From Cenococcum geophilum 1.58 (lineage: Eukaryota > Ascomycota > Dothideomycetes > Gloniales > Gloniaceae): a DNA stretch of 64,000 nt. The stretch covers positions 124,001 to 188,000 of the forward strand of contig KV748207.1 in NCBI GenBank assembly GCA_001692895.1. The letters are read 5' to 3'. Shown one piece after another: positions 14,984-62,375 of this stretch. The first letter of the stretch is position 1, and each line of letters begins with the position of its first letter. A model generated the notes under the pieces. That model worked only from the letters and a program-made list of their open reading frames with translations. It was not told where the DNA came from and made no database searches. The position numbers and the translations under genes were made by a program.

Positions 14984-14992
14984 AGGAAAGTG
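14984..14992. repeat. 9-bp target site duplication of the MULE, left copy
   Basis: AGGAAAGTG, repeated exactly at 62,367-62,375 right after the opposite terminal repeat. Nine bp is the classic Mutator length. Confidence 0.92.
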
Positions 14993-15046
14993 CGGTCAAG
15001 ATCCGGGCAGTAACACTTGGCAGTAACTTTACTGCCCAAATCTTTT
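14993..15046 (+). repeat. MULE left terminal inverted repeat
   Basis: Begins CGGTCAAGATCCGGGCAGTA. Contains a direct repeat of GGCAGTAAC and an internal dyad GGGCAGTAA / TTACTGCCC that could form a hairpin within the repeat. Confidence 0.93.
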
Positions 15047-15118
15047 AATTAGCGGCGGCCTAGCAGGCGGTTAGGGTAGCCAAGGCACTACTTGGGCACC
15101 TATTTTACTAGTAAAAGC

Positions 15119-15126
15119 TATATAAA
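15119..15126 (+). promoter_or_regulatory. Possible TATA box of the MULE transposase
   Basis: TATATAAA in otherwise GC-richer DNA between the left terminal repeat and the first transposase ATG candidates (15,269 and 15,412). Position is plausible; no other support. Confidence 0.3.
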
Positions 15127-16779
15127 TGCAATGTCCACCAAATACCCGCCGGCCCCGGCATATCCCGCAGGCTGCCGCACGGTTAAACGGAGGTGCACGT
15201 ACTTTTGTCACCGCCACGTTAATTAACACTACTCAATTATTACCTAAGCTCTATACAAATACGTAGCAATGGCTCCCTACGCTCTATATTAAGATTCTTA
15301 TCTAAAATAGACGCTCCTACCTTAGTTATTCCTGCCGCCGCGCCTTAGGAAACTTAGTTAGTTAAATAAAAGGCTTACAAGAAGCTATAAAATAAGAACG
15401 CGATTACGGCAATGCAGGTAGCTATTTAATTAATCCCCCCTAAACACTTGCTTAAGCCGGAAGCTGGTGAGCACTACAACACTCAAGACTTAGTAGTATA
15501 GCGCTTTAATAACTACGCGTTCTCTTAAGGCCGCGAGCTCTGTATAAGTGGTGGCCGAATTATATAGCGACTTTATATAAAATGCAGAGCTTATAGTAGA
15601 GAGACTCGCAACTATTAAAAGCTTACTAAGGATAATCGTCAGTAGAAGGATAGGGAAGGTTAATTACTTAAGCGGCCAAATAAAAATATTTTAAAGAAGA
15701 ATTATCCCTATTACGTCTCTGCTTATAAGCGTATAGATAAAGAAGTTATTACTTAGGTTATAAAAGTTAATAACGGTATATATACCTACGTAGCTATACT
15801 AAATCCTTTCTCTCTTCTAAAATATAGGAACCGTTAGCCATAGTATATAGAAGTTATAGCGGAAGCCCTTAACTACTAGGCTGCCAACGCATCTATAGGA
15901 GAGGTATGGCGGCTTCTATCCGCTAATAACTTGCCGCTAATAAGTAGTCGTAACTACTAGAATATAGGAGGGTAAGTACGTTAGGGTAAATAGATAGGAG
16001 GTATAATAAAGCAGGAGCAATTTACGGAGCTCTATTTAGCTCTCTAATAAGCCGGCTTCTATACTCGCTCGCGTATCTATATGGAAGTTAATACTAAAAC
16101 AGGTAAGCTTACTATTTTATTTTATAAGATCTAAGAGGTGGTAAGATTAAGGCGATAGCGAGATTAAGGTAATGGTAAGATTAGGGCGATTATAATATCT
16201 AAGCAACAATAAAACTCTATTAAGAAGAATATTCCCCTTTATCTAAATTACTTGCTAGCCTTCTAAATAGGTATATCTTATAGTTTTAAAGAAAGAATAG
16301 GAAAGGAATAAGTTACTATAGTGGATTTAGGTCTATTAGATAAGCGCCTCCTTTAGCCCCTATCCCGGCAGTATAGATAATATAGCATTTTCCAGTATAT
16401 CTAAGTTATAAATTAGTATGGTGGGACCCACTAAATATAATAATCTAACTGTGCGGTGGTATGTCTTAGAGTACTTTGGTATTAAAGCGCCCGGAATATT
16501 TATTTGCTATCTACTACTAACTTAATACTAACTTATTCTTCTCCCTAGGTAACCCTACCTCTTAAGTCCTTATTTAACTTACCTTTATAACTCCTAAATA
16601 AATTACTTTTATACGTTAATTTGCCTCTAGCTTCTATATTTATACTAATATAACATTCTCTACAAACTAGCTCCATATGCCGCTATTAACTATAGTAATA
16701 ATAATAAATACTGGCAAGACAGTTCTAATTATATACTTAATTATTATATCTAAGGCTGAGTAGGTGTTTAAAGAGATAT

Positions 16780-16880
16780 TGTAACGTGGCCCGCCTCCAC
16801 GTCGCCATACGGCCAAAAAGACTAAGAGTGCTTGCGAACTTGTCGCAAGCGCGGCGGGACCTAATATATATACTCTTACA
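16780..16880. repeat. TRIM left LTR
   Basis: 101 bp, TGTAACGTGGCCCGCC to ACTCTTACA. Contains the hairpin CTTGCGA / TCGCAAG. Confidence 0.88.
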
Positions 16881-17122
16881 ATTGCCCTCTCCTCTACGCG
16901 CTCGTCCCCGAGCGCTCGCAGGGATTCCTCTATGCGCCTATTCCGGGCCACAGGGATTAAACGCTAAGAGTATTACTATATTAGTTAGTCCCCAGTAATA
17001 TAAGCGATTGGACTTAGCTAACCCGCCTTATTACACGGATGTGTATTAGACTATACTAGAGCAAAGTAACCGCTGGGGATTAAACCCATAACACCTGGCC
17101 CCGGTAAGTTCGCAAGCACAAT

Positions 17123-17223
17123 TATAACGTGGCCCGCCTCTACGTCGCCATACGGCTAAAAAGACTAAGAGTGCTTGCGAACTTGTTATAAGCGCGGCGG
17201 GACCTAATATATATACTCTTACA
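17123..17223. repeat. TRIM right LTR
   Basis: 101 bp, begins TATAACGTGGCCC (TG to TA), ends CTCTTACA, followed by GATAT. Confidence 0.88.
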
Positions 17224-17663
17224 GATATATAACTTTATAAACGAGTTTATATTCCACGATATACCTACCCTAAAGGTTTATATTAGTGATTAGGGAGCTA
17301 GATTTATATTAGCTACCGAAAAGCTTACTAAGAAGGATATCTAGATACAACTCTATAAGTAGCACGTTATTAAAAATATTAAGATAATATTAGTTAATAG
17401 TAGCAAGTACTTAAAGGAGAAGTGGAAGATATTAGATAACTTAATTTGGGCGTATACTAAGTTAGAGAGTCCTACTAAACTTAAAGCTAATTATAATGCA
17501 CTTATGCGTTAACTTAGCTAACTAAAGGCTCTTAAAATTAAAGATTACTAGGGCCTAAGGGAGGCCTACTTTAATAGGGCTTATATTTATTATTACTGTA
17601 ATCTTAGTGCCAATACCTTATAGAGGGGCGAATTAATTTATCTAGTGATAAAAGTAAGGTTAT

Positions 17664-17863
17664 TGTTGGGAATAAAGGCAAATGGTCACCATATAAGGCA
17701 TATTGCCATCACGTATAGCAAGTTGCCATCACGTGCCGCCGCGGCACTAGCGTGGTAAGGAACCTTAAGTTCCTCACCCCTTTCTTTAAGAAGAAAAGAA
17801 GAACAATAACTATCATACTATCTACGAACCGTAGCTACGTAATATCCCCTTATAAGTCCAACA
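17664..17863 (+). repeat. CopA 5' LTR (200 bp)
   Basis: TGTTGGGAATAAAGG to TATAAGTCCAACA. The first part is shared with the CopD LTR; the last part is not. Confidence 0.93.
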
Positions 17864-17969
17864 CTAATTAGTGGTTAACTTCACTGTTATACTATAGAAT
17901 AGTTAGGTATTACTAAGAAGAGATAAGCTACTGTACCAGTGCTACTTATACTAGAGGAAGCTATCTTTT

Positions 17970-18247
17970 AAGGTTAGAACTGGTCCTAAACCTTAAATAG
18001 AACTCTTTCATAAATCTAAGGATCTAAAAGGCCAGAACTAGTCCTAAGCCTTTCTAAGATTACGGATTCTTGCGTCCATTACGCAAAACAACACACTTTA
18101 TAAGTCTTCGCGATTTAAGGCCAGAACTAGTCCTAAGCCCTATAACCGCAAATACACGTTATAAACGCGTACTAAACGACAAACGCGTACTAAACGATAA
18201 ACGCGTACTAAATAACAAATACACATCACAAACGCGTACTAAACGAC
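17970..18247 (+). repeat. CopA leader repeats
   Basis: Three copies of a 23-nt repeat (AAGGCCAGAACTAGTCCTAA-gcc) at 17,970-17,992, 18,028-18,050 and 18,117-18,139. Then an 18-nt unit starting AAACGCGTACTAAACGA, three in a row plus a fourth after a 13-nt gap, at about 18,163-18,247. All lie between the 5' LTR and the gag ATG at 18,286. Confidence 0.8.
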
Positions 18248-18285
18248 AATCCCTACACTAATAACACTTCTCTCCCTCCAAAAAC

Positions 18286-21200
18286 ATGGCTACGCCTACC
18301 TTAAATAACTAGAAAAACTCCTTACCACTAGGGGTAGCTAAGCACGCGAAACTTATTAATAAAGATTAGGACGAATTCGCCTTTAATATAACAACTTATA
18401 CCATAAAATAAGTTAACGGCTTTCTCCTACACTATATTATATTCTACTAAAATAGATGCTACGCCAACTTACAACTATGGGAGTATTTTAGGAAGGATTT
18501 TATAGGATAGACTGCTAATACCTGGGCACTTAGTAACGTTAATATTGTTTAAAACTTTTAAGACTTCTTTTATAAGAATGGGGTATATATTACTAAGAAC
18601 GGTAACCCAATTACTAGCAATATTTAGGCCGTTATTACTAGTGTAGAAGAACTAATATAGACAGAAGCTAAAATTATACGTTAACTACGGAAACCTAAAA
18701 ACAACCCATATTCTTCAGAAGGCAACTTTAATTCGTATTAAAACCCCTAAAACGCTAACCCCCTACCTAGAGCTACTCTCCTACCTAGAGGTGCTCTCCT
18801 ACTTAAAGTTACTCCGCCTCTACCTCCTCTACTCCAGCTAACCGGTAAGCCTTTACTATAAGAAGTTATAAATCTAATAAAGGTATATTCGGACAAAGAG
18901 AAGAAATTTAGAGGAGAATTATATAATATACTTAGAGCAAAACTATAGGTCTTTTATAACTGTTGTAATAAGGTTAGAATTTAACGCCACTAGTACTATT
19001 ACGCTTTCTCTATTATATTAAAGGGACGGGCGGCAATATTCTATTACAACTATATTACGGGTAAAAACTATAACTTTAATATAATGCTTCAGCTTACTAG
19101 AGCCCACTTTAAGACTAATAAGAATTGTTAACTTTATATATCCAAATGGCGGGAGACTATGTTTTAGAGAGTTATTACTTCCAACCTAATAAAGACTTAT
19201 TTAGAGTACCTTTAACTACTCTTTAATAAACTCTAGAAAATCTAACGTAGCCTTACTAAAACTTACTAAAATAAGAACAGCTTAAGGGACTAGGTTATTT
19301 TAGCATGCTATAGCATTCCTAAGTGTAACTTAGCGCTATATAAACCTATAGATACGTTTAAAGGAGTATATACTAAGCTACGCTCNACTATAGGTACTAT
19401 AATGCGAATATAAGAATCTTAATAGTTCTATACCGAAAACCCTACCTAACTAAGTATTCCTAACCAATATAATTATAACTGGACTAATTAAATATATAGT
19501 AGCCGCGGTAGGGAATATAGAAGAGGGTATAATTAATATTAACTATAAGGTAATTATAGAGGTTCTTATAGAGGTTTATTTTAAAGTAATCGCTAAAAGA
19601 AGTGCTACGTTTATAAGAAGCTAAATTGCTAGTTAACTAGATACTCCCTTAATAAGCGAAAAGAGGTATATAATAAGTTCCGTTAGAGTATAAAAAATGT
19701 CAAAAATTACAAGGTTACTATGGCCTACTTCTAAAGCTTCCTAGTTTAATATAAAGGCGTAAAAGACCTTAAGGGTAAGGTTAATAAGACCGAATAGCTC
19801 CTTATAGATATGGAAATTAAGAACTACTTACCTAACCAATACTTTACTAAGTATAGTGAGGTAAATAGCATATAAACCATTGCTATCCTTAATAACTAAT
19901 CTACGCTCCATTCTATTATAAAGTTAAATATCTTTAATAAGCCAAAGGAGAGCTCCGCGATTTCCTTTAATAATAAATACTTGGCAAATATCTTCTATAG
20001 TATTATACCGGATACTAAAGCCGCAGGAATATCTATAGTAGGAGAACCTTAAGTTCGAGCTCTTTAGCAGCTTAATAGCTTTGTTTAGATTAACTATTTA
20101 ACGGCAGGCTAGCATACAATTTATTTTAGTAAAGGTACTATAATCTCTCTCGGCATAATTAGGGTTCAAACCCCCTTAGAGTACATTAGTTTTTACGTTA
20201 TTTCCATAAATACCCTATTTCTATTTTGCATTAGAGATATAGATAAATTAGGCGTTAAGCTTAATAACCTTAAGAATGTACTTATCTAAGGAGATAATTA
20301 GGTGCCTATTATGCGCAAGTAGGGTTACCCCTAGTTACTCCTTTATTAACTAGAAAAGAGTATTACTTAGAGCCACTTAACTAAGTTAGAGTTACGCCAA
20401 CTACACCGTCGTTTTAGCCACCTATCCATTTATTAATTACTTAGGGTTCTTTAGCAAGTAGGCTATAAAGTTAAGGTTAAGGCAATTAAGCATCTTATAA
20501 AGTATTACTATTACTACTAAATAAACTAAAAGTCCCCTAGCCGATTTAAGTTCACCCTTAAGAATAACTACAACTTTAACTTCTATATCGTCATTAACGT
20601 TATATATCTTAGCGGTAAGCTAGTGCTCTAAGTTATTAACTTCTTAACCTCCTTCTAAGCTGCGCGTTTCTTAAAAAATATATTAGCTAGAAACGTATAG
20701 GAGACCCTTTGGTTATACTAGATTAATATCTATTTAGGACCCCCTAATTAAATCGTCTATAATATAGGAAAGAACTTCTTATCTATAGAGTTTTAATAAT
20801 AGATAAAGGCAATAGCAATTAAGGTTAAGGAAGTCCCTATTAAGGCATATAATAGTATTAGAAAAGTGGAATAATATTATACGCCATTACGCCGCGTATA
20901 TAAGATTATCTCTTTAAAACTAAAGGACGCTAGTGAAGAACTTACCTTATAAATAGCTGTTAAAGCTGTTAATAATTCCATTAGCCCAAATAGACTCGTA
21001 CCTATATTGCTAGTCTTTAGCGCCTACCCTTAAATAACTAATAATTCTTTACTATTTCCCTCCGTTATATAATAAGCTAAGGCTATTCACAAGGCAATAA
21101 AGGAGGTGCAACATCTCTACGCCACACGCTAGGTTAACGACATACTAGAAATAAGAAATAGCCTAAATACCTTAACTATACTTAACCTGCCACTCCAGTC

Positions 21201-23190
21201 TAAGGTACGCGTATAACATAAAAAGGGAGAATAGTTAGGCCTATACTAACTCATTATAATTAATAGTTAAACTTATACTATTTAGATACCTTATAGACCT
21301 ACTTAATTCCGTTTAACTATTATTAAGCCTTACTATAAAGATAATAATTCCAAGCCTTTATAGGATGCCCCAGAAGATACCCTAAAAGAAAACCACAATT
21401 AATATACTCTAGAAGGCGACTACAATCCCAATATAATTATAGTAGATACGCTATAACCACGACGCGGTAGAGGTCGCCCGAAGGGATTATAAAATCACTA
21501 ATATCTTATTAATTTTAAAGAATAATTTGTTGCCGCCATTAAGAATAGAGTTAAGTTATTAATAGCCTTTTTAACAGCTAAGGAGAAGGCTAACTTTAAA
21601 CTCGCAAAACAGCTTTAAAAGGAAGGTTGTATTATAACTCCAGGAGCTCCTTTCTAAGCATCCGATAAGTAGGAGATCGATAGTCTTATTATAAGAGGAG
21701 TCTTTAAATTCAAAAAGTATAACCCTACTAAGTTTAATAGAGTTTATATCTTTAAGTTAAGAATAGTTAATAAGATTAAGGGCAAAGCTACTAACGCCCT
21801 ATTTAAGAAATTAAGGCTTGTCATCTAAGATTATAATAATAATAGTAAGAAGGTAATTCTTACGTAATCTCCTATAATTTAATAAGCTAGTTAGCAAGTT
21901 ATTATTACGCTAGCTCCCTCCTTAATAAAGAACGGAATGGCGGTTTATTTATAAGATATTACTTAAGCCTATACTTAATTAGAGACGCCCCTTTAGCGCT
22001 TAATACTGGCATACCTTCTAGAGCAAATTCGCTACCAGTATCCTAAAGATACGATCATAGCTGTGCTTAAGCCATTGTATAAAATCGCAAAGGCAGAAAC
22101 TCACTAGTAGGCTACCTATAGCAAGCACTATAAAAAGAAGCTTTTAATAACTACTTCTATATTTAATCCCTACTTCCTTATTACAACTACGGGAACCCTA
22201 TTTGGAATTATCAGTATATAAACTAATAATATAATTATCTTAGGAGATAACCAATTCTTAGCTCTTAAAGAGGATAAGCTAATAAAGGCAAATCTTATAG
22301 CAAAGCTAAAGGAAAAGCTTAACTTAACAATACTATTACTCTTTAATAGATGCATCCTTTCCCTAAATAAGGATTCTATTGCTTTACGCCAGAAGGGTTA
22401 AGGCAAGAAGATTAACGTTATTAACATTAATTCTCTAAAGTAAGGATATATAGAGTAACGTGCTTGCGGAGCTTATATTGCTTCTATCTATTAACCTAAG
22501 ACTTTATTTAATATCTCTATTACGGCTTAACACTAAAAACTAACTAAGGACGATATCCTTACCCTAAATAAGCGTCTTTTCTAGCAAATAAACTATCTTA
22601 ATTAGGGACTACTCTATATACCTATTAATCTTCCTACCGCCAAGCTCTTTATATTTGTTAATAGATTATTTATAAATAATAAAGATTTTAGCTCCCAGTT
22701 AGGATATAAGATTATTATCACGAACGAATTTACTAGAGAGAATAACTTCATAATTTATAGCAATCTTATTTATTAAAGCTTAACTAAGAGCAAGCGCGTT
22801 ACTTAAAGTATTTTAGCATTAGAGATATATAGAATGGTTGGTGGAGTTAATATAGCAATTGCAATTAGAACTACCCTAAAGATAATTATAGATTAACTTA
22901 AACTTTCTATTATCCCTATAATCGTGTGCACTAACTTATATTCCCTCTATAAGTATTTAGTTAAGCTCGGTACTATAAAGGAGAAGCGCCTTATAATTAA
23001 TATTATAGCACTTTGGCAATCCTATAAGCGTTAAAAACTCTTTAAGATTTAATAAATTAATAGCTAAGATAACCCGGTAGATGTAATAATAAAGGCGAAC
23101 CTAAACAAGGCACTAGAGACGTTTATTAACACAAATACTCTATATATACGAGTTAAAGGTTAGGTTAAAAGGGAGTCCCTAGAAATTTCT
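18286..23190 (+). pseudogene. CopA gag-pol polyprotein, RIP-inactivated
   Basis: Starts MATPTLNN at 18,286. Copia order is visible: gag (about 18,286-19,700), protease-linker, integrase-like text with LRQLHRRFSHLS (about 20,395) and LGPPN.IVYNIGKNF (about 20,730), reverse transcriptase (FKKLRLVI near 21,805; catalytic box reads TNN near 22,225 instead of an Asp pair), and RNase H with CTNLYSLYKYLVKLGT (about 22,928) and EKRLIINI. It ends near 23,190. One base is undetermined at 19,386. Stops are almost all explained by CAA, CAG or TGG codons changed by one transition. Confidence 0.85.
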
Positions 23191-23219
23191 TAGTCACATA
23201 AGGTCTTAAGATGTTTAGG

Positions 23220-23343
23220 AACTTTAACCGGCGGTCAAAGTTGTCTAATTAGTTAGATTCTGCAAACCCTAACTCAAACCAGCCAATTAGGATTTTCTAT
23301 CCCCAAGATAGAAAATCGCTATTAGCTCGCTTACCGCTAGCGC
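23220..23343 (+). repeat. CopA 3' module: dyad B and dyad A
   Basis: Dyad B at 23,220-23,242 (AACTTTAACCG, one base, CGGTCAAAGTT). Dyad A at 23,291-23,317 has 10-bp arms GATTTTCTAT / ATAGAAAATC and a 7-nt centre. Then comes the reverse complement of the GCTAGYGGTAAGC motif to about 23,343. Related blocks occur in CopC, CopD and the gypsy element. Located between pol and the 3' LTR. Confidence 0.8.
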
Positions 23344-23534
23344 CTTAGCGGCCCTACTAACAAGATACCTACCCATAACTTATAAGTAAGAAAGCACCAC
23401 ATGCGAAGGGGCAAATTTTGGGACAGCGAGACTTATATTACAATAGTAATAGTAAGTAAAAAGAATTAATTTTTTGTTCCGCTAGTTAAGCGGTATATAT
23501 ATATAGATAGCAACCACAAAAGAAGAGTTGCTAG

Positions 23535-23734
23535 TATTAGAAATAAAGGCAAATAGTTACCATATAAGGCATATTGCCGTCACGTATAGCAAGTTACCAT
23601 CACGTGCCGCCGCGGCACTAGCGTGGTGAGGAACCTTAAGTTCCTTATCCCTTTCTTTAAGAAGAAAAGAAGAATAATAACTATTATACTATCTACGAAC
23701 CGTAGCTACGTAATATCCCCTTATAAGTCTAACA
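23535..23734 (+). repeat. CopA 3' LTR (200 bp)
   Basis: Starts TATTAGAAATAAAGG (TG changed to TA), ends AAGTCTAACA. Differences from the 5' copy are mainly transitions. Confidence 0.92.
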
Positions 23735-26700
23735 GTTATATAAGGACCTTATATTACTAGAAGTCGTTAATTAAATTAAGTTAGTAATTAATAAGAGGTT
23801 TAAAAAGTATAAGAGATTAAAATATAAGGATTATAGAGAGTCTTTCCGGCTTTAAAATACTTATATATTTTGGTTACTATAGGGTTAAGTAATTAATAAG
23901 GCTATTAGGCTTATATGGGATAAATAGAAAGTTGTTAAATCTAACTATAGACAGTTTAGCTAGCTTGCTAAGGACAGTAAGAAGTATAGGCCGCTTAAAA
24001 GCGATCACGTTATTACCCGCATATATTAGCGGCTCCTAGAGTTCTATATACGAAGATTTAATACTAAGGACGGCTATAGCAAATACAGCTACTATTTAGA
24101 GTAAGGTAACTGTAATCTTCCTATTTAATATAGCCTCCTATATTATTATTAGATAGAAAAGGCTCTATAGAAATTAGTGTTGTTGCTATTAAGCCTTCTT
24201 TACCCCTAATAGCTACTTAACGGGCCGCCTGTTATTAGATTTAATTAGCAATTAAGTTATAACACCTAACTTAGTCCTAATAATAAAGCTATTACCAACG
24301 GTAACTGCTTTAGCAATAATGGAGCAGATATAGCATTAGGTGCGGCGACTGTAGTATATAATATAATTACTAAATTATACCCTACTAAGCAAGCAGAAGT
24401 TCTTATAGACTTATTTTAGTAGTAGACTTAATAGCTTCTTCTTAAGTTTAAAGGGGTGCGTAGAAAGGATAATACTATACTAATAGAGCTACCTAATCTG
24501 GTCTAGACTTTAAAGGTAAAGTTTAAAAAGAAGGGTAAGGCTAATAAACGTGGTTTTACTGGCCTTAAGTAAGCTAAGAGGGCTGTAAAGCATAAAAAGT
24601 AGGTAAAATAACAGAAATCTTAACAGAAGAAGAGATAGAGATTAGTAGTAGGGGTCTATAAGGAGCTTAAAATATCGTTAAATACACTACCTATATTAAC
24701 TGCACTTATGAGACTACAGTGCTTACTATAAGCGGCTGCTAATAAGCGGAAACGTTAGTTAACCTAGTTGTTAACCTTATCCAAATCCTCTTAAGAGTAA
24801 CCGTCGATAATGTTAAATATATTCGTCCGTCTATATCCTACACTAGTATCCTCTAGCTAGAACTCTAAAGATTCTAATAACTCCGATAACTCCCTTACGC
24901 AGCTAAATACTTAGGACTTTAGGTCGTCACAATTTAAAATATAAGCTATAGTTATTCTACCTATATAACTAAGTAAGGTCCTAACCACGAGGGTTATTAT
25001 ATATTTTATTAATACATTAAATTCGTTAGGTAATTATTATATCTTAAAAAAGGAGCTCTTGCTACACCTGGCCTAAAAAGACCAAAACCAACCAAAAGAA
25101 CCCTGAAAAACACCTAGAGAATCCCCCTAAGATGCATACATCGTAGGGAAGGCACACGTTAAACAACGGTGGCTCGCACTTGCGCGCGACCGCTAAAACT
25201 ACGCCTAGCAATGGCCCTCTATAATAAAGACGGGCGAATACCATATTATAAAGCGGAAATACCTCTATTAAGAAGGCATCTAATAAAATATAAAGCCTAT
25301 TAGATGCGTCTAGTATCTAAAATTATAGGGGAGTAACTGTTAGCTATAATAAACTAATATAGCTAGTAGAATGGCTTCGCTAGTCTAGTAAACCTTAGGC
25401 GCCCCTTTAGTAAACCCTTAATTAAATCCTCTAACGGCTAAGTAAAATTAAAAATAAGTATAACCCCCCTTTACTGGTGAACCGCACCTAGGCCGCTATA
25501 GCTATACTTTTATAGTATAGGGAACCTACCCCCCTTAAGTTAATAACCGGGTATATAATTATAATATAACTAAATATAGAATAAGTAGAAGGGCTTAGGG
25601 GATAATTAGAAATAGAAGTCCTTATAGAGATATATAAAGAGGTTTATAATACTGTTATAGTCTAATACCTTAAGAGCGGAGATATTAGAGTTACCCTAAA
25701 GGATTAATAGGCAAAGAAATAAGCTATAAGGGTAGGGGATAGGCTAGGAGAATGTATTAGCATAAAAGTACTCTATAAGGATTACCTAGTTAAAGTCCTA
25801 GTGGTTCCTATAAGCCTTAAGGTAGAAAAGGGACGCTAGGTGGATAATATAGTAATTATATAGGAGATAGTAAGATAAATGGAACGCCTTATACTAGAAC
25901 TTGAAATCACCCAAATCTAATAGCTTTAATAGGAAAATATAAACTAAGTATATAATAAGAATAATAAAAGGATATAAGGGTCGCTGGAGACTTGCTAGGG
26001 AGATACTAGATAAACGCATGGCTCCCTTATCGTCAGTATATATATACTAGGAATGCAAAAACTCCTTATCTAAAAAGGAATAATTATAAATAGCCTTATA
26101 TATAATATAAGGCTCTATAACTATAGACTACGCCTAGAATAATGCTATTACTATATATAATAGGGACACACCTAATCTATATGCGTAGTATAGGTATACT
26201 GCGGCCACTATATAGGCCCCTATAATATAAGATATTGCTTAAATTAAGACTAAATAAAATGTATAAACTGCCACTAAAGCATATATAAGGCGTAGGAGAG
26301 AGAAGACTGCATTAAATATAGGAGACGGAAGGTAAGGGCTTAATAGCTGCGGAAATAACTATATACTAGGTTATATAAATGGAAATAATAGGCGATAAGC
26401 TAGGGGGACGTAGGCGCCTTTTTAGCGTTTTCTACCTTTAATACTAGAGGGCTAGGCCAGCTATCCTAAGCCTTAATAGGCCAGAAGTGATGCCGCGCGA
26501 TATTACTAGACTAATTAGGGATATAAGGGTCACAGGGGATATAAGGGAGAGGACGCCCTGTAGAAAGACCCCTATAGATAGCGACAGTAGGCTTAAGACT
26601 AGGATAATTAAGAATTAGACTTAATGCGGTAAATATAATATTTATAGCTAACCTATAAAGGGTATATAGCTGACTAGTAAGAATAGGGGAAGAACTAGTA

Positions 26701-27605: not shown

Positions 27606-27830
27606 TGTTAGGTGAAACCTAAGTAGATAGTTATATAGCCGTAAGGTATGGGCGACCCTGGGGCAACCTAGGGGTAACTCGCCCGTAAGGCACGTGCTCT
27701 ACACGTACCTAGGGAAAACCCTTCCTACCTCGTATATAGACTCCTCCTTTTCCCTTAAGGATTCGTCTCTGTCTATATAATATACCTATTATTCTATTAT
27801 TGGACTCCCTATCCACATCCTTACCTTATA
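27606..27830 (+). repeat. Gypsy 5' LTR (225 bp)
   Basis: TGTTAGGTGAAACCT to TTACCTTATA. Confidence 0.93.
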
Positions 27831-27882
27831 TTTAAATCCTTACTAATCCCCTTAGGAGGATAGCCGGTTTAATTTTTCTATA

Positions 27883-44424: not shown

Positions 44425-44572
44425 CGGAGCACCTATAGTATATCTACGGCCCGTTAGAAGGCTATACGGCTCATTATACGGTACAGGTGGAAAACGGTAG
44501 AAAGCTATAGTGGAACTTAGTAGACTCACATAACCTGCCAAATTTTGCAGGGTGGTTGAATTAACCAATCAC

Positions 44573-50500: not shown

Positions 50501-53130
50501 GAGACGGTTTATAAATAAGTATACTTCTAACCTAAGCCTCCCCTATAATAAGGGCCTTTAGGCTATAGCGAAATAGGTAAAGAAAAAGGTAGGGCGTTTA
50601 GTAGAAGACCTATACCTACCACCCCTATAAAGAGTAGGAGAATTATAGGCTATAAATGACAACAATAAGAAGGCAAAGATCCTTATAAAAAGGTTTTTCC
50701 CCTAACCGGCTTTAGTAGACTTTAGTAATATTATAGGCGAAACACCAGTAACTCGCCTGCGGGTTAACAGCGACATAATAATAGAGGAAATGGCTAGAAC
50801 TATTAGCCGCCTTTTAAATAATATAGCACTAGGACTAGATGGGATTCTAAATAAGGCCCTAAAAACCTATGGGCTACTTATAGCACCTTAGCTTATAGAT
50901 ATAGCTAGAGTATGCTTTGCTATAGGCTATTACTCGCGACTCGGAAGATCTATAATAACAGTTATCCTATAAAAAGAAGGTAAAGCAGATTACTTAATCC
51001 CAGGAAGCTACTGCCCTATTGCCTTAGAAAACACCCTTAGTAAGATCTTAGAAAGGGTAATAGCGGAACGTATAGTAGATACGGTAGAGGAATATACCTT
51101 ATTACTACAAAGCTAAATAGGGGTAAGAAAGAACCGCTTAACACTATTAGCACTTACGCTACTCGCTACTACTATTAAATCTATATAGGCGATGCGAAAG
51201 GACTTTGTAGTATTAATACTTAGCCTAAATATTAATAGTGCCTACGATAATATACCCTATGAGTGTCTTTTGTATATCCTTAGGGTAAAGGGCTTCCTAG
51301 AATAGATTATCTAATTTATCTAAGGGTTTATAGGCTAGAAAGAAATATTACTGGTCTTTAGCGGATACTAGAGCCCCCCTATTATAGTTACAACAGGAAT
51401 ACCATAAGGATTACCCCTCTCGCCTATACTCTTTCTTTTCTTTATAAGCAACCTACTTAACTCCTTTAAGGAAGGGGCGACCTAGGGGATAGGCTTCGTT
51501 AATAACATAAACCTAATTATATACGGGCTAATAGCCGTAAAGAATTGCAGAATACTAGAGAAAGCCTATAACACTTATATAAAATAGGCAAAACGTTATA
51601 GAGTCTAATTCTTACTAGAGAAATACTAGCTAATCCATTTTATAAGAAAATGTAACTAATCTATAAATCTCTAGTATATAATTCGCATCTAAGGCTTTAG
51701 GGGTTAACCAGTTTAGGGCCTAAGGGTATTAGGAGTATGGGTAGATAGTAAGCTCCGGTGGAGCGTATATGCGGCGTAAGCAGCCCATAAAGGCTAAGTA
51801 TAGTTTATCGCTTTATCTAGGATTGTTAACTCTATATAGGGTCCATGCTTCTAGAGGTTACGCCTACTATATATAGCAGTCGTCCGGCTAACTATAATAT
51901 ATAGATCCAGTATTTGGGCCATTAAAGAAACTAAGAAGGGCCCCCCTAAATTACTCCTTAAACCACTTTAAAAGGTCTAAATAGCCTACCTTTAGAGTAT
52001 TATAGGCGGGTATAAGCGAACAGCTATAGCACTGCTTAAGAAGGAATCCAATATTCCCCCCCTATAGTTATATATTAAAGCCGCTGCAATATAAAGAACG
52101 TAAAATAAATATAACTCTAATGTTATAAAGTATATTAAGATACGCCTAAGTAAACTATAGAGGGACCCTAAGGTGCCCTATAGGAGAATAAACTAATAAC
52201 CCTAAAGTAGGGAAGAGATATTAGAGAAATAGGTAAAGAAAGCAGAAGAAAAATAGTGCCGCTTTAGGGCCTAGGCCTATATAAAGAAGAAAGGGAGACG
52301 CGTAAGAGGTTAGCAAAAATAATAGTAAGATAGAGAAAGGAGCTAAAGTAGAATATATAAGAACGCTAGGAAACTATCTACCGTAATATAATACTGGTTG
52401 GACTAATACTAAAGAGGTAAATAGGAGTTAAAGGTATAGAGGCTAACTTAGGTAAGATAAACCTAAGCTATAGTATGGTTAACGCTATAGGGGGTAAATA
52501 CCTAAGGGCTCTAAGAAGGCCTAATAAAGGTAGAAAATATAATAGCAATACTCTTAAGAATAGGAATAATAGGACTAAAAGATTAGCTTTACTAGGTGGG
52601 TATTCTAGTAGGTAGCTCGAGATGTAAATATGGCTAGCCAAGACAGACACCAAAACACGTAATACTGCTATGCCCCCTACGCACTAATTAAGAAATAATA
52701 CTCTTAGCAGCTAGCATAGAGAACTATAATACACTGCTCTTAATATAAAAAGGCCTTAAGGCGGTTACCTAGTGGCTTATTAGTTAAAATGTGCTAAATT
52801 AGTTCTGGGTTGTAAGGGAAATGGTAATAAAAGGCAAGGGGGCGAGCAGTAGGTGCCCCCTAGTAACTCTATAGTAGTAGAGTAATAGTTTATAATACTA
52901 GCACGTCTATAGGCTTGTTACGGCAGCAGTGATTCCTAAGGAGGTTAAATAGTAAGGTAGTAGAGCACTATAGGCGACTTATAGGCACTAAGTAGGCGAG
53001 TCCTAAAAGGCGGGGAGATAGATTATGGGGTTTTCTCATTTTTCTTAAATAGAGTTTTCTCCCTATATGTAAATAAGAAGTAGTCTGCGTAGGCCCAATA
53101 GGGATCCGAATCGGACGTTAAGCAACGAAT
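47573..53130 (+). mobile_element. Non-LTR retrotransposon LINE-B, uninterrupted copy (about 5.56 kb)
   Basis: Same family as LINE-A and the best guide to its layout. Target duplication of about 22 bp (47,551-47,572 and 53,131-53,152, one C/T difference) containing TATTATTAATAAAGGAATA. The first about 19 bp before the A-run are not seen in LINE-A. It ends ...GTTAAGCAACGAAT with no poly(A). Inserted in the CopB integrase region. Confidence 0.88.
49700..53020 (+). pseudogene. LINE-B endonuclease-reverse transcriptase, RIP-inactivated
   Basis: Visible through stops: endonuclease-like KFILLGDINLYYLR (about 49,825), then RT blocks MARTISRLLNNIALGLDGI (about 50,790), IPGSYCPIALENTLSKILER (about 50,998), GIP.GLPLSPILFLFFISNLL (about 51,400) and the catalytic box FVNN at 51,495-51,506, where FVDD is expected. 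A C-terminal Cys-containing tail (LLCPLRTN) lies at about 52,665. The order fits APE-type fungal LINEs of the Tad1 kind; the first ORF (about 48,000-49,500) contains basic, coiled-coil-like text and is not assigned. Confidence 0.78.
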
Positions 53131-53568
53131 TATTATTAATAAAGGAATACAATTTTAAGCTAGTAGATAGCTATAAAGCATTAGCGCCAAATATATATAG
53201 GATATACTATAAATGTGCTAGATTAACATATATTTAGGACCTCTTAATATAATTATATATAATATAGGCAAGAACTTTATAAGTAAGGAATTTAAGCAGT
53301 ACGCTATAATATTTAAAATAATTATAAAAAGCGTACCCGTTAAAGCCTATAACTTAATTAAAATAGTAAAACGCTATTACGGTCCCCTTCGCCGTATATA
53401 CCATATTATTACTATAAAACTACTAAACATTAATAAAGATATAGCTCTATAAATAGCTTTTAAGGCAATTAATAATTTAGTAGGCCCTAACGGCCTTATA
53501 TCTACCTTACTAGTATTTAGAGCTTACCCGCGTATAGTAGAATTTAATATACCTAACCCTATAGTTAT

Positions 53569-53754
53569 TGTTAGAAACACAGAGTGACTTACCAATAACA
53601 ACTACTCGAGTAGGGTTATAGTGATGTTGGTTAATTCTTTTTAATAGGAATAAGGAAAGGGGTGAGGAACTTAAGGTTCCTTACTACGCTAGGGCCACGT
53701 CGACACGTGACGGCAATATGCTTTATATGACGGCAACTTGCCTTATTCCCGACA
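53569..53754 (-). repeat. CopD 3' LTR (186 bp)
   Basis: Minus strand TGTCGGGAATAAGGC to GTTTCTAACA. Confidence 0.92.
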
Positions 53755-53928
53755 CTAGCAACTCTTCTTTTTATGGTTGCTATATATATATATATAAATA
53801 GACAGTATATAACAATACTAGACAATATATAATAAAACCAGACAATATATAATAAAACCAGACGATATATAATAATACGGCAGTTAGTAGAATTTGGTAG
53901 ATAACGTAAAGATGGGTAGGCCGCTAAG

Positions 53929-54084
53929 ACGCTAGTAGTAAGCAAGCTAATGGCGATTTTCTATACCGGGTATAGAAAATCCTAATTGGTTAGCAGAAGT
54001 CCATACCACCACCTAAATTAATTAGGCGCAGCGCTCTTAGCAAGGATTTAACTAATTAGATAACTTTAACCGGCGGTTAAAGTT
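53929..54084 (-). repeat. CopD 3' module: dyad A and dyad B
   Basis: GCTAGTAGTAAGCAAGCTAA motif at about 53,931. Dyad A at 53,955-53,981 with 13-bp perfect arms (GATTTTCTATACC / GGTATAGAAAATC). Dyad B at 54,062-54,084 with 11-bp perfect arms (AACTTTAACCG / CGGTTAAAGTT). Confidence 0.8.
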
Positions 54085-54149
54085 TTATAAGATCTTAACT
54101 TCTCTAAATTTCCCTCTTAACCTAACCTTTAACTTATATATGTAGAGTA

Positions 54150-57100
54150 TTTATATTAACAAACGTCTCTAGTGCCTTATTTAGGTTTGCCTTCATTATT
54201 ATATCTACTAGGTTATCTTAGCCATTAATCTATTAGATTTTAAAGAGTTTTTAACGCTTATAGGACTGCTAAAGTGCCATAATATCGATTATAAGACGCT
54301 TCTCCTTTATAGTACTAAGCTTAACTAAACACTTATAGAGGGAATATAAGTTGGTATATATAATTATAGAAATAGCGGGAAGTTCGAGCCGGTCTATAAT
54401 TATCTTAAGGGTAGTTCTAATTATAATTGCTATATTAACTCCGCCGACTATTCTATATATCTCTAACGCTAGAACGCTTTAAGTAACATACTTACTCTTA
54501 GTTAAGCTCTAATAGATAAGGTTGCCGTAGATTATAAAATTATTCTCTCCAGTAGATTTATTTGCGATAATAATCTTATATCCTAGCTAGGAGCTAAAAT
54601 CTTTATTATTTATAAACGATCCATTAACGAATATAAAGAGCTTAGCGGTAGGAAAGTTAATAGGCACGTAGAGTAGTCCCCTATTAAGATAGTTTATTTA
54701 CTAAAAAAGACGCTTATTTAGGGTAAGAATATTATCCTTAATTAGTTCCTAGTGTTAAGCGGCAATAGAGAGATTAAAGGAAGCCTTAGGTTAATAGATA
54801 GAAGCCATATAAGCTCCGCGAGCGCGTTACTCCACATATCCTTACTTTAGAGAATTAACGTTAATAACGTCAATCTTCTTACCTTAACCCTTCTAGCGTA
54901 GAGCAATGGAGCCCTTATTTAGGGAGAGGATACATCTATTAAAGAGTAATAGTATTACTAAGTTAAGTCTTTCCTTTAGCTTTGCTATAAGGTTTGCCTT
55001 TACTAGCTTATCTTCTTTAAGAGCTAAGAATTAGTCGTCTCCTAAGATAATTATATCGTCCGTTTATATGCCGATAATTCTAAATAAAGTTCCCGTAGTT
55101 ATAATAAGAAAGCAGGAATTAAATATAAAAGTAGTTATTAAAAGCTTCTCCTTATAGTGCTTGCTATAGGTAGCCTACCAATAAGTTCCTACCTCTGCGA
55201 TTCTATATAATGGCTTAAGTATAACCATAATCATATCCTCGGGATATTAGTGGCAAATTTACTCTAGAAGGTATGCTAATATTAAGCGCTAAAGGCGCGT
55301 CTCTGATTAGGTATAGGCCTAAGTAATATCTTATAGGTAAACCGCTATCCTATTCTTTATTAAGGAGGGAGCTAGCGTAATAATAACTCGTTAACTAGCT
55401 CGTTAAATTATAGGGGATTACATAAGGATTACTTCCTTACCGTTATCGTTATAACCTTAAATAACTAGCCTTAACTTCTTAAATGGGGTATTAGTAGCTT
55501 TACCTTTAATCTTATTAACTATTCTTAACTTAAATATACGGACTCTATCGAACTTAGTAGGGTCGTATTTCTTAAATTTAAAGACTCCTTTTGCAATAAG
55601 ACCGTCGATCTCTTGCTTATTAGATGCTTAAAAAGGAGCTCCTAAAGTTATAATGCGGCCTTTCTTTTAGAGCTATTTTACAAGTTTAAAGTTAGCCTTC
55701 TCTTTAGCTGTTATAAAGGCCATTAATAGTTTATCTTTATTCTTAATAGTAGTAATAAATTGCTCTTTAAAATTGATAAGATATTAGCAATTTTATAATC
55801 CCTTTAGGCGACCTCTACCGCGTTATAGTTGCGGTACGTCTACTACAATTATATTAGAATTGCCTTTACCTTCTAAAATACGTTAATTATAGTTCTCCTC
55901 TAGGGTATCCTCTAGGGTATCCTATAAAGGCTCAGAGCTATTATCCCTATAGTAGGGCTTAACAATAGTTAAGTGGAATTAAGTGGGTTTATAGAGCATC
56001 TAAAGAGTATAAGTTTAACTATTAATTGCAATAAGTTTATATGGGCCTAACTATCCTCCCTTTTTACGCCATACGCATACCTCCAATTGGAGTGGCAGAT
56101 TAAGCGTAGTTAAGGTATTTAGGCTATTTCTTATTCCTAGTGCGTCGTTAACCTAGCGCGTGGCGTAAAGACGTCGTACCTCCTTTATTACCTTGCGAAT
56201 AGCCTTAGCTTATTATATAATAGAGGGAGATAATAGAGAATCGTTAGTTATTTAAGGGTAGGCGCTAAAGACTAGTAACGTAGGTACGAGCCTATCTAGG
56301 CTAGTGGTATTATTAATAGCCTTAACAGCCATCTATAGGATAAGCTCTTTGCTAGCACCCTTTAGTTCTAAAGAAATAATCTTATATACGCGGCGTAATG
56401 GCGTATAATATCGTTCTACTTTTTTAATACTATTATATGCCTTAACGGGGACTTCCTTAACCTTAATTATTATTGCCTTTACCTATTATTAAAACTCTAT
56501 AGATAAGAAGTTCTTTCCTATATTATAAATAATTTAATTAGGGGGTCCTAGGTAGATATTAATCCAGTATAATTAAAGAGTATCCTATGCGTTCCTAGCT
56601 AACATATCTTTTAAAAAGCGTGCAGCTTAAAAGGAGGTTAAGAAGTTAATAACTTGGAGTACTGGCTTGCCGCTAAGATATATAACATCTATAATAATGC
56701 AGAAGTTAAAGTCGTAGTTATTTTTAAGAGTAAACTTAAATCGGCTAGGGGACTTCTAGTTCATTTAGCAGTGGTGGCAGTACTTTATAAGATGTTTAAT
56801 TACCTTAACCTTAACTTTATAACCTACTTACTAAAGGACCCTAAGTAATTAGTAAACAGATAGGTGGCCAAAACGATAGTGTAGTTAACGTAACTCTAAC
56901 TTAGTTAGGTGGCTTTAAGTAACGCTCCTTTCTAGCTGTTAAAGGAGCAACTAAGGGTGACCCTACTTGCGTATAACGGGCACCTGATTATCTCCCTAGA
57001 TAAGTATATTCTTAAGGTTATCAAGCTTAATACCTAATTTATCTATATCTTAGATGCAGAATAGGAATAGGGTATTTGCGGGGATAATATGGAAAGTAAT

Positions 57101-59300
57101 ATATCCTAACGGGGTTTAGACCTTAATTGTGCTAAGAGAGATTATAGTACCCTTACTAAAGCAAATTATATATTGGCCTGCTATTAATTAGTTAATCTAA
57201 ATAAAGCTATTAAGCTACTAAAGAGCTCGAACTTAAGGCTCTCCTACTATAGATACTCCTGCGGCTCTAGTATCTAGCATAATACTATAGAAGACGTTCG
57301 CCAAGTATCTATCGTTAAAGGAGAACGCGGAACTTTCCTTTAGCTTATTAAAGATATTTAACTTTATAATAGAATAGAGCGTAGATTGGTTATTAAGGAT
57401 AGCGACGGTTTATATGCCATTTACCTCACTATACTTAGTAAAGTATTAGTTAGGAGAGTAGTCCTCAATTTCTATATCTATAAGGAGCTATTCGGCCTCA
57501 TTAACCTTACCCTTAAGATCTTCTTCGCCTTTATATTAAACCAGGAAGTTTTAAAAGTAGGCTATAGTAACCTCTTAGTTTCTAACGTTTTATGCGCTTT
57601 AGCGAAACCTATTATATACCTCCTTTTATCTATTAAGAGGGTGTCTAGTTAACTAGCAATTTGGCTTCTTATAAACGTAGCACTTCTTCTAATAATTGCT
57701 CCAAAGTAAACCTCCATAAGGACCTCCATAATTACCTCATAGTCGACGTTAATTATACCCTTTACTATATCCCCTACCACGTCCACTATATATTTAATCA
57801 GTCCAGTTATAATCATGTTAGTTAGCCAGGTCGATTAAGGTAGGTTAGAGTTAGGCGTTAAATTGCTATACTTCTTAAGAGCGTAGAGCGGTGCTAATAG
57901 AGGATCTTAATTAAGTATATACTCCTTCGTAAGTACTTATAGGGTTAAAGAGAGCGAGATTGCATTCTTCAATACCTTAGCATGCGCTAATAACTTAATT
58001 ATATAGGCTAAGGTCCTCTTAATATAATTTAGATAAACCACGCTAAATTATCTAAAGTTAATTAAAGAGCTTTTAAAGATAATTAAGCCGAGAGACACCT
58101 GGGTTCGTAGTAATGATTCTTAGGAAGGTAGTCTCTTTCTACTCCAATATATATTGCTGCTTATTCTCTTCTATTTTAAAGTAGCATCTTATCTTATATA
58201 TTATTTAGTTAAAATTATATCCTTTTCCTACCAAACGATTATAATAGAAGGTACTAGCGCGGCCCTTAAGCATAACGGAATAGGCGTTATAATATTAGTT
58301 AGGTTCTAGTCTAACCTTCTAGCAATAGTTATAGAAGATATGTAGCTTCGAATTAAGGATATTATATAGTTCCCCGCCAAACTTCTTCTCCTAGTCCGTA
58401 TAGAGCTTTATAAGCTCTATAAGCATTTTTAAGGTGCCTCTAAGTGGTATTAAACTATATTAAAATTGCATTAGAGATTAAGGTAGGGATTGCTTTATAG
58501 GCTGCAGTAGAGATATAGGGCTTAGTAGAACACGGCGTAGTACCTAATCTTCCTATAGTAGAGTTTAAAGGTTATTAAATCGCGAAGTAAGGGGATCTTG
58601 CGCTTGCTCTTAAGGGGTAGTAGTTAATATTACTAGTTAAATTAGTAGATCCTAGGGAGCTGGAGATAGAGGTAGAAGCGATAGATATAGAACGTAAGAA
58701 CTTATGCCTAAAGTAATGGAATTAGAGCGCGTCTCTATTGGCGTATTATTTAGATTCTATTATAAGTTAAGCTTCCTCTTAGTGCGTAGTTGGTGCTTAA
58801 CCTCTTATAGAGTCCATTCGTGCTCTTTTTTTGCGTTAATGACTTACTCCTAAATATTATCTCTAATAGCACCCCTATCTATAGGGATAAATACTCTATT
58901 CTCTTGAAGGAAGTTATAGAAGTCTTATACGACGTCCTTCTTCGCGAGAGCCTATATTTCCTTTATCTATCTAATAAAGTCCTCCTTTATATAATACTAT
59001 AGCTCGGTATTATTATATTTGCTATCTATATAGTATACTATACAGTATACTAAGAATCCGTTTAGGTCCTATTCCTTAGCGTTTATAGGGTTAATGTCTA
59101 TATCCTATATCTCCAGGTTAATACTTTTCTCGTACTTCTTTAGGTAAGTTAACGCTATAGTAGGTATAGAATTAACGGGGTGTCGTACGTCAAAGGTAGG
59201 TAGGGTTTTTGGCTTTGTAGAATCTCGTAGGTTTGCTGTTAAAAGGTAGGTAATTAAGATATTATTAACGCATTTTAGACGTTAACTTTAGGACCATAGG
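54150..59300 (-). pseudogene. CopD gag-pol, RIP-inactivated
   Basis: Read on the minus strand by comparison with CopA: the RNase H end lies near 54,150-54,330, RT at about 54,900-55,560, integrase at about 56,300-57,250, and gag to about 59,200. The short plus-strand open frames in this interval are shadows. Many stops; boundaries approximate. Confidence 0.72.
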
Positions 59301-59643
59301 TTTAGTAATACTTCTAACCTAAAGTACTTAACCAAATCTTTATATGCGTAGTTGTTTAACGCGTTTTAGACGTTAATTTTAGAACCGTAGGTTTAGTAAC
59401 ACTTCTAACCTAAAGTACTTAACTAAATCTTTATAAACGTGGTTATTCTATATAATAGACGCAACTTGGTATCTCCTAGTACTTAGTAACACTTCTATTA
59501 CTAGTTTTTTGCAAGTCTAAGGTAGCATAGTATCGCCGGGATCCATTCCATATAAGCGCATATGGCACCCCTATATAAGACTATCTCTTCTATTCAAAAA
59601 CCTAGCTGCTCTATAGTTAACTGTATATTTAACCACTAATTAG

Positions 59644-59829
59644 TATTGGAAACATAGGGTGACTCACTAATAACGACTACTTGAGTAGGGTTACAGTAAT
59701 ATTAGTTGATTTTTTTTAATAGGAATGAGGAAAGGGGTGAGGAACTTAAGGTTCCTCACTACGCTAGGGCCACGTCGACACGTGACGGCAATATGCTTTA
59801 TGCGACGGCAACTTGCCTCATTCCTAACA
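59644..59829 (-). repeat. CopD 5' LTR (186 bp)
   Basis: Minus strand TGTTAGGAATGAGGC to GTTTCCAATA; CTAATTAGTGG follows. Confidence 0.92.
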
Positions 59830-61973
59830 GTTATATAATAAGCTATAGCCCTTAAAAAAGCTATAGAAGAAGTTAAGAAAATTAGAGCCGAATGTTAAGT
59901 AGTAGATACTCTTAATATGCGCAACGGCCCTAAAATAACCGCAATTTACGACCTACTACTTAACTTACTTATACTAGTATGGAGAGAAGGACCTATAGGC
60001 CAGCCTAGTTTCTAGTTAGGTCCCTATAATCTACTTAGTATTAATAATAAGACCTATACTATATAACTCCCCTATAGCCCTATTAACTTTTATAGTATAG
60101 TTATAAAACTATACTTATAAGAACCTAGAGATATAGAGGATATATAACCTAATAACAAGAATAAACTACCTTAGTTAATTGTAGAACTACCTTAGGAACC
60201 TTAACTAGTTAAGTAAAAATAAGGTAAACTATATAAGTATTCTATCGTAGTTAATACTATAAATATATCTATATATTTATAAGATAAGAATAAGACTAAT
60301 AGTTAGTTTATAGCCTTATAATAGAAAGAGGTTAAAGGACTACTTAAGAAAGGAGTCTTTAAATTAGTTAATATTAAGGACGTACTTTAAGGCAATAGAG
60401 TATTTAACTCTAGATTTATTAATAAAATTAAGAATCCCGGTACTAATAAGGCCTTTAAGAAATTAAGACTAGTTATATAGGCCTATAATAACCTAGAAAA
60501 AGACCTTATACTAACCTAATTACCTACAATTTAACGAGTTAGCTAACGCCTTATTTTCTATATTACGGCTATAACCTAGACTAATAATATATACCTTTAC
60601 TTACGAAACATCTTATAAGCCTATATTTAGTTAATTATAAAACTAAATTAAGACTTCTATATCTAAGTACCTCTTAAACTTAGTATAGCACTTAGAGTCT
60701 TATAAGGCACAATCCTTAAGGTTATTAAACCTTTATACGGCATCCCAAAAGCAGGCAATTATTAGTTTAAAACCTATTATAACTACTATACTAAGGAGTT
60801 AAATATAAACCAATCTACTTACGACCCCTACTTACTCCACCTTAATAATTCTACAAGCTTTAAAATAGTTGGCCTTTAGACTAATAATACCCTCTTTTTA
60901 GCTAATTCGGTTTTTACAGCTTTAAAATAAAAAAAGATTAAGAAAGTAAAGTTTCTAACTAAGGAACGTAAGTAGCTTATACTAGAGCACCCAATTAAGT
61001 TTAACAGAGGTATTATTTAATAATAGGACTATATAATTATACTTATATAAGAGCGCCAATACTAGAACCTAACCCTTATTAATATTAAGGAAGCTATTAT
61101 AATAACTAGCTCTAAAGGTACTATTTATACGGTACTTACACCTAAGGACTAATACGTTGCCTAATAAGTAAGAGGAGCTTATATTGCGTTTATATGCCAG
61201 CCTAAAGCTTCTTTTAATTTATCCTACGCTGCCTAGGTAATTAACCCTAATAAGAAAAACACAAAACTACTTAATAAGAGAATTTAGTGGCAAATTAAAA
61301 ACTTAATAAGAGGTTTAAGCTTTGTTAAACTTAATATAGAGACACTTTAACTACTTATATTTACCGATTCCTTATTTATAAATAATAAGGACCTCTTATT
61401 ACAAATTAAATATATCCTAGTACTAGCAGACTTATTAAATAAGGCAAATATTGTCTACTAGTTCTTAGTTAAGTGTAAAAGAGTTACTAGAAGCGTACTA
61501 GCCTCCGAATTATACGCTATAGCCTATAGTTTTAATATTGGCGCTGCAATTAAGGCCACAGTTAAACTATAACTTAATATTAGCCTACCGCTTATTTTTT
61601 ATACCAATTCTAAGTTAATCTATAAATGCCTTATTAAGCTAGGAACAACATAGGAGAAAAGACTTATAATTAATGTTATATGCCTACGCCAGTTATATAA
61701 AAGATATAAAATAGCTAAAGTTAAGTAAATTAACGGAGATAGCAACCCTATAGACGCTATAACTAAAAGTAAACCGTTATTAGCCCTTAAGCGACTTATT
61801 AATATAAACTAAATTAAGTTAGAGACGGTAGAATGGGTAGAACGTTCTACTAATAATAGCGTTAATTTAGAGGCATAGGGTAAGGAAGGAAGGGAGGAGA
61901 AGTGCGTATATAGATTTCTCGGACTATATAGTTATAGCCTACTAGTTCTTTATATTTTCTAAAGTACTCCTAG

Positions 61974-62260
61974 TATAGCTAGAAGCGTTAGACATATCGC
62001 GAGGACGGCTAATACGCTAGTGGTAAGCAAACTAATAGTGTAATGGTAGAATATAGCAGAATATAGCAGGATATAGCCAACATACTAGTAGTAAGCGAGT
62101 TAATAGCGAGGTAGTAGAATATGGCAGAATATAGCAGGACGCGCCCAATATATATGTGTGACGCGCGTCGCAAGTAGAAAAACAACAATCCACTAACAAT
62201 ACCGCATAGTACATATCATTGTGATATATATATTCTGCACGTTGTTAAAGTATACCAACA
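61974..62260 (+). repeat. CopB 3' LTR (287 bp)
   Basis: TATAGCTAGAAGCGTTAG to TATACCAACA, followed by CTAAA. Same length as the 5' copy. Confidence 0.92.
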
Positions 62261-62312
62261 CTAAAAATAAGCTCTAAGCCACTGATTTTATACTGGCAGA
62301 ATCGAACTTAGC

Positions 62313-62366
62313 AAAAGATTCGGGCAGTAAAGTTACTGCTAAGTGTTACTGCCCGGATCTTGACCG
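62313..62366 (-). repeat. MULE right terminal inverted repeat
   Basis: Reverse complement of the left repeat with two transitions, ending TTACTGCCCGGATCTTGACC-G at 62,366, followed at once by the second copy of the 9-bp duplication. Confidence 0.93.
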
Positions 62367-62375
62367 AGGAAAGTG

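Follow-up and report, generated by a model that had tools for sequence, protein, structure and literature searches.

The stretch analysed here, called the window, comprises 64,000 bp of Cenococcum geophilum 1.58 (contig KV748207.1, positions 124,001 to 188,000; C32:124001-188000 in our contig numbering). Between its positions 14984 and 62375 lies a nest of nine transposable elements: an outer element, which we call the shell, and eight insertions, four of them in the shell and four inside those. A reading of the sequence alone had described the outer element as a Mutator-like element (MULE) with 54-bp terminal inverted repeats (TIRs) and a 9-bp duplication outside them. The outermost features are as follows.

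14984-14992, unstranded: left copy of the target-site duplication, 9 bp, AGGAAAGTG, an exact match to 62367-62375
14993-15046, + strand: left TIR of the shell MULE, 54 bp, from comparison with the right TIR
62313-62366, within shell piece 5 (+): right TIR of the shell MULE, 54 bp
62367-62375, unstranded: right copy of the target-site duplication, 9 bp, AGGAAAGTG

The outer element

Direct alignment of 14993-15046 with the reverse complement of 62313-62366 gave 52 identical positions out of 54, as had been claimed, and both mismatches were G/A transitions. The limits of the nest, including the exact 9-bp duplication just outside the TIRs, were confirmed to the base; AGGAAAGTG has no further occurrence in the window, whichever strand is read. 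A 26-bp core of the TIR gave two matches in the window at up to three mismatches and none in 100 shuffles. The proposed check for further copies of the repeat was made in the whole genome (177.2 Mb, 162 contigs) and returned 74 core matches at up to three mismatches, 38 and 36 by strand, with none for a backwards control. The two window ends are the only exact matches to the core; none of the other 72 shares this variant.

Six uninterrupted relatives of 4,398-4,585 bp (L009, L010, L011, L013, L015 and L038) were found in the same genome. Their alignments, together with those of a related protein, P0121, described below, define five pieces of shell in the window:

14993-16779, + strand: shell piece 1, the 5′ part of the MULE and the start of the MULE domain (relatives' alignments)
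17224-17663, + strand: shell piece 2, transposase, P0121 residues up to 179 (relatives' and P0121 alignments)
23735-24976, + strand: shell piece 3, C-terminal part of the transposase, P0121 residues 178-588 (relatives' and P0121 alignments)
37374-38181, + strand: shell piece 4, 3′ part past the transposase frame (relatives' alignments)
62261-62366, + strand: shell piece 5, containing the right TIR (relatives' alignments)

The five pieces occur in identical order and orientation in all six relatives, taking the best match per piece, with 3,296-4,240 bases aligned at 80-89% identity; in L015 and L038 pieces 1 and 3 aligned over part of their length only. Piece 1, which ends in the 5 bases of insert A's left GATAT duplication, is 86-88% identical to L009, L010, L013 and L011 and 73-82%, over part, to L015 and L038. 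Near 37474-37509 the shell is about 215-230 bp shorter than the compact relatives. This collinearity demonstrates that both ends belong to one element. It disposes of the possibility, named beforehand as fatal to the proposal, that the two TIRs come from separate elements, and together with the common core variant it supports the claim of a single transposon with both ends. The total span of 47,374 bp is accounted for by 4,359 bp of shell and 43,015 bp from the four insertions into it, duplications included.

The MULE domain (PF10551) has a curated cut-off of 27.6 bits. An X-marked piece of the window ending at 16777 scored 21.4 bits. When the genome was scanned with PF10551, 79 matches were listed, and they include members of the TIR family: copies on C6 (30.7 bits) and C7 (28.7 bits) lie above the cut-off and one on C36 (27.2 bits) just under it. 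The claim that transposase text lies inside the nest is upheld by the window piece and these relatives. Stop-free pieces of L009 (24.3 bits) and L011 (21.5 bits), as well as a 592-residue X-marked stretch of L011 (26.5 bits), scored below the cut-off. That stretch matched two ENA-sourced proteins: one, P0121, is 72% identical to it over 77% of the query, and the other, P0122, 64% over 48%. P0121 starts inside the MULE domain and scores 30.9 bits against PF10551; P0122 matched no family. On the window shell P0121 aligns at 60-65% in three parts, residues 1-34, 30-179 and 178-588, with breaks at inserts A and B. Residues 1-34 lie at 16677-16778. Insert C sits where the transposase frame ends on its 3′ side, residue 588 being at 24,965, and D lies beyond it. 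The frame contains many stops in addition to being cut by insertions, and this copy of the MULE is dead.

TIRs are usual in MULEs, though some MULEs are without them. The family described here combines TIRs, a 9-bp target-site duplication and a PF10551 transposase. Duplications of 8-11 bp are given for MULEs in general, and fungal groups are on record (PMC6446971). Copies with different duplications at different sites point to movement by the encoded transposase.

The insertions and their mutational record

The inserted elements are listed below; LTR stands for long terminal repeat and LINE for long interspersed nuclear element.

16780-17223, unstranded: insert A, 444-bp LTR-type element, LTRs 101 bp, duplication GATAT; splits the MULE domain
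17664-23734, presumably + strand, from D3: insert B, 6,071-bp LTR retroelement, LTRs 200 bp, duplication GTTAT; splits the transposase frame
24977-37373, + strand: insert C, LINE-type, 5,621 bp without C1, duplication ACTAAGTAA (9 bp); of the D2 family
27606-34376, + strand: insert C1 in C, 6,771-bp LTR retroelement with RVT_1 fragments, duplication GAAGC
38182-62260, + strand: insert D, LTR retroelement, LTRs 287 bp and 84% identical, duplication CTAAA; split by D1, D2 and D3
38764-45126, + strand: insert D1 in D, 6,363-bp LTR retroelement, duplication CTAAC
47570-53130, + strand, limits approximate: insert D2 in D, second LINE copy, 14-19-bp duplication
53569-59829, - strand: insert D3 in D, 6,261-bp LTR retroelement, duplication GTTAT; a relative of B in reverse orientation

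Target duplications were found for all eight insertions; the limits of D2 are approximate because its duplication runs into a (TTA)n-like tail. Six of the inserts are LTR elements, each with an LTR pair and a 5-bp duplication, and two are LINE-type copies. The latter, C and D2, are 91.0% identical over 2,611 bp and 92.4% over 2,998 bp. No LTR pair for either was present in the window repeat lists, their duplications vary in length, and the D2 reverse transcriptase matched PF00078 (RVT_1) at 2.3e-13, a combination expected of LINEs. Insert C was also considered as a second MULE on account of its 9-bp duplication; this was rejected, as no inverted repeat was seen at its ends and the D2 family has a LINE-type reverse transcriptase.

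RVT_1 fragments of C1 were detected at 1.4e-4, below the cut-off, and 2e-9, above it. Among stop-free pieces no Copia domain (gag_pre-integrs, rve, RVT_2) passed its cut-off, the best being gag_pre-integrs in a D1 piece (E 0.05). Structure marks B, D, D1 and D3 as LTR elements; their Copia kinship is a reading of motifs that the domain search did not confirm. LTR divergence is highest in the host D (16.4%), compared with 10.1% in its guest D1 and 11.3% in D3, as the order of insertion requires. The continuity of D across its inserts is indicated by its paired LTRs and duplication, rather than by an uninterrupted relative.

The target GTTAT is common to B and D3 (17659-17663, 23735-23739, 53564-53568 and 59830-59834), which are independent insertions, and CTAA begins the target of D as well as that of D1. 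The LTR elements may have a target preference.

Comparison of the six LTR pairs (1,267 aligned bp, no gaps) revealed 130 transitions and no transversions (A 6/0, B 13/0, C1 16/0, D 47/0, D1 27/0, D3 21/0). The base following the mutated C was A in 88 cases, G in 30, C in 5 and T in 7. Repeat-induced point mutation (RIP), a process that requires the RID enzyme and a sexual cycle, leaves C-to-T transitions on either strand, chiefly at CpA, and is presumably what produced these differences. All shell and insert pieces have a RIP composite index of 0.67 to 1.48; the two gene-bearing flank stretches have values of -0.39 and -0.36. Between the shell and L009 there are 445 transitions and 35 transversions. 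At this share the probability of zero transversions in 130 changes is 5e-5; it is therefore very likely that each element inserted with two identical LTRs and that their present differences are explained by RIP.

A record of this kind, made of RIP transitions only, means that LTR dating overstates age. At a fungal rate of 1.05e-9 per site per year (PMC4522978), total LTR divergence corresponds to 28 to 78 million years per element. Zero transversions in 1,267 bp, with transversions assumed to be half to a third of ordinary substitutions, set the average age at no more than about 2.3-3.4 million years. The locus is an example of how wrong LTR ages can be in a genome subject to RIP. A RIP-like process is also described for Mycosphaerella graminicola (Zymoseptoria tritici), where RIP may, according to the authors, have inflated LTR ages (PMC4522978).

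The terminal repeat family and its conserved ends

Of the 74 core matches, 49 had their flanks read, which gave 25 candidate pairs: 17 of convergent neighbours within one stretch, seven joined from separate stretches, and the window. An exact 9-bp duplication was found in 19 pairs, an 8/9 match in one and a 7/9 match in another; four pairs (L034, one pair in L038, and pairs on C86 and C7) had none. Exact flank matches between different copies averaged 0.0 per shuffle. The expectation of the sequence-only reading that such ends are usually lost in RIP-mutated fungal repeats needs correction here, where ends are often kept (19 exact duplications in 25 candidate pairs), although eleven ends, listed below, were without a partner in the stretch read.

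The exact pairs range in size from 912 bp to the 47,374 bp of the window, the next largest being 14,808 bp (C34) and 12,423 bp (C89), and 16 of the 18 others measure 0.9-4.6 kb. In the parts aligned, the 12.4-kb pair on C89 (L014/L037) includes a relative of D1 and the 14.8-kb pair on C34 (L016/L047) a relative of B. The D1 relative on C89 joins the shell at a place corresponding to 16,473, where the window has no insertion. Ten short members of 0.9-1.8 kb (L012, L017, L028, L029, L033, L040, L046 and pairs on C30, C28 and C47) have the TIRs and exact 9-bp duplications and look like non-autonomous derivatives.

Two 68-kb pairs were considered as larger nests and rejected. On C86 the flanks match at 2/9 positions. 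On C7 one flank is the reverse complement of the other, as would result if a single insertion end had been copied in inverted orientation, and this speaks against a single element.

The flank GGTATTTAT, compared over 9 bases, is common to three TIR ends, two at C7:3805648-3873864 (L043, L044) and one at C21:60751 (L018); the two on C7 lie 68 kb apart, one inverted with respect to the other. These are probably one insertion end copied with its surroundings.

The TIRs have diverged little. Comparison of the left with the right TIR within each of 15 copies showed 17 differences in 810 sites, all of them transitions; the LTRs, at 130 of 1,267, differ about five times more. A sixteenth copy, L040, was set aside because 24 of its 54 positions differ, probably owing to a register shift; including it brings the total to 27 transitions and 14 transversions over 864 sites. 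In four compact copies the TIRs carry 0.025 and 0.022 transitions per site compared with 0.077-0.171 in 200-bp bins of columns 200-4,400. The window pair itself (2/54) is low relative to element D (probability 0.004) and not clearly so relative to the pooled LTR rate (0.07).

Two explanations of this low divergence were weighed. The ends may owe it to selection on working ends, to copying between family members or to local sequence, and we regard this as a quite real possibility, although not yet a probable one. TIRs are required for the movement of DNA transposons, and the ten short members with exact duplications share them. However, the contrast between interior and TIRs in the four compact copies speaks against this: if most interior change came after insertion, as we infer, selection for movement could not have preserved the ends of dead copies. 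CpA+TpG, moreover, is commoner in the TIRs (density 0.11-0.12) than in the inner bins (at most 0.10), although RIP may itself have lowered the inner density. The other explanation, which we put forward tentatively and would not call probable, is that RIP spares the outermost tens of bases where an element borders single-copy DNA, so that ends and target duplications survive around a ruined interior. In an edge test on the LTRs, the copy at the outer edge carried the T/A state at 15 of 41 differing sites for 30-bp edges and at 23 of 62 for 50-bp edges (binomial 0.06 and 0.03), a suggestive result only; the two sets overlap, and the shortest LTR is just 101 bp.

Sparing of transposon ends by RIP was not found in the literature searched (titles and the starts of abstracts), which is no proof of absence, and passages of PMC12543289 contain nothing on it. 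If edge sparing were true, insertion order would be readable in RIP-mutated genomes, and transversions, in place of total divergence, would provide a usable clock for nests. The nest offers a clean locus for asking how close to the edge of a repeat RIP reaches.

Assembly of the nest and related systems

To the left of the nest an acid-sphingomyelinase-like gene lies on the minus strand, with an open frame to 13,939 (Metallophos 1.3e-8, ASMase_C 5.4e-6); further left are Lactamase_B, Pam16 and Pex24p genes. A protein from JGI and ENA sources is 97% identical to the left-flank gene, and among named hits the best reached 70% (Coniosporium uncinatum). The insertion point is about 1 kb upstream of this gene, as measured from the open frame and not from its true first exon. 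In the sequence of events that we propose, a MULE of about 4.4-4.6 kb entered there, presumably by cut-and-paste through the MULE transposase, duplicating 9 bp of target. A, B, C and D then inserted into the shell, followed in the next layer by C1 into C and by D1, D2 and D3 into D, stretching the shell to 47,374 bp.

The nest is real and well proven, and we hold its description as a MULE with eight later insertions to be very nearly certain. Several observations weigh against it. Four of the 25 candidate pairs are without a duplication and two have changes in it. Eleven ends (L018, L031, L032, L035, L036, L039, the minus end of L041, L042, L043, L044 and L045) had no partner at up to six mismatches when 6.7-9.8 kb was read inward from them. 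The MULE match of the window itself lies under the Pfam cut-off (21.4 as against 27.6 bits), and in the Pfam search neither a second transposase piece of the window nor the X-marked, presumed LINE endonuclease stretch of D2 matched a family. Domain search did not establish the superfamily of A, B, D, D1 and D3. The RIP index is positive outside the nest as well (0.43 at 7001-9000, 0.63 at 62376-64000). Finally, the empty allele was not seen when joined flanks were searched in this assembly.

With respect to the last point, it had been claimed that the outermost insertion can be proven and its empty site read directly. The first part stands by virtue of the ends and the duplication; the empty site was reconstructed by joining the flanks. 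A second copy of the joined 200+200-bp flanks was not found in the assembly, where only their own two places match (very common words skipped). A search for a protein that reads through the junction of the flanks yielded no candidate, a negative of little weight given a 62-residue chance frame.

A giant cargo transposon whose 47 kb moved together would also have intact ends and a duplication at its outer limits. In Starships the content moves as one unit. Here, however, the 43 kb between the shell pieces consist of independently inserted elements with their own duplications. Most other exact pairs are 4.6 kb or shorter (16 of 18), and the remaining two hold relatives of D1 and B, with the junction on C89 at a point where the window has no insertion. 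We consider this explanation very improbable. Accidental pairing of two different members of the TIR family 47 kb apart, for which 74 core matches and four candidate pairs without matching flanks might speak, is more improbable still, given the exact 9-bp duplication of the window pair, a core variant that is exact at no other match, and shell pieces collinear from end to end with six relatives.

Nests of such kind and size are already known in fungi. In M. graminicola 78 nested clusters of 7.5-63 kb were described; one measures 47,365 bp and has an outer duplication that was verified (PMC4522978). Like the present nest, they are low in GC and contain nested LTR and non-LTR retroelements. Outer duplications were verified in 35 clusters with an LTR base; for eight clusters above 20 kb whose base is a DNA transposon or unclassified, it was the inner LTR element whose duplications were verified. 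The verified bases tabulated there are LTR retrotransposons with 4-6-bp duplications (PMC4522978), whereas the present nest has as its base a MULE flanked by a 9-bp duplication of its own. The locus is thus a well-resolved further example with a less usual base element, and its worth lies in the clean layering and the transition-only record.

The shell resembles VdMULE1-3 of Verticillium in having one MULE-domain transposase and TIRs, and VdMULE1 has an 8-bp duplication (PMC3441728). The TIRs are shorter here (54 bp versus 73-86 bp) and the element longer (4.4-4.6 kb versus 3.4-3.6 kb); VdMULE1-3 are present in one copy each (PMC3441728), whereas this family has many, heavily mutated copies. 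A study of maize and rice likewise treats MULEs together with nested insertions, in plants (PMC3903597); RIP is a fungal process.

Two further repeats were noted in the window. Positions 59265-59446 in D3 form a 91-bp tandem duplication (89%), and in the left flank, outside the nest, 2-1834 matches the left part of D1 (38764-40596) at 91% in reversed orientation.

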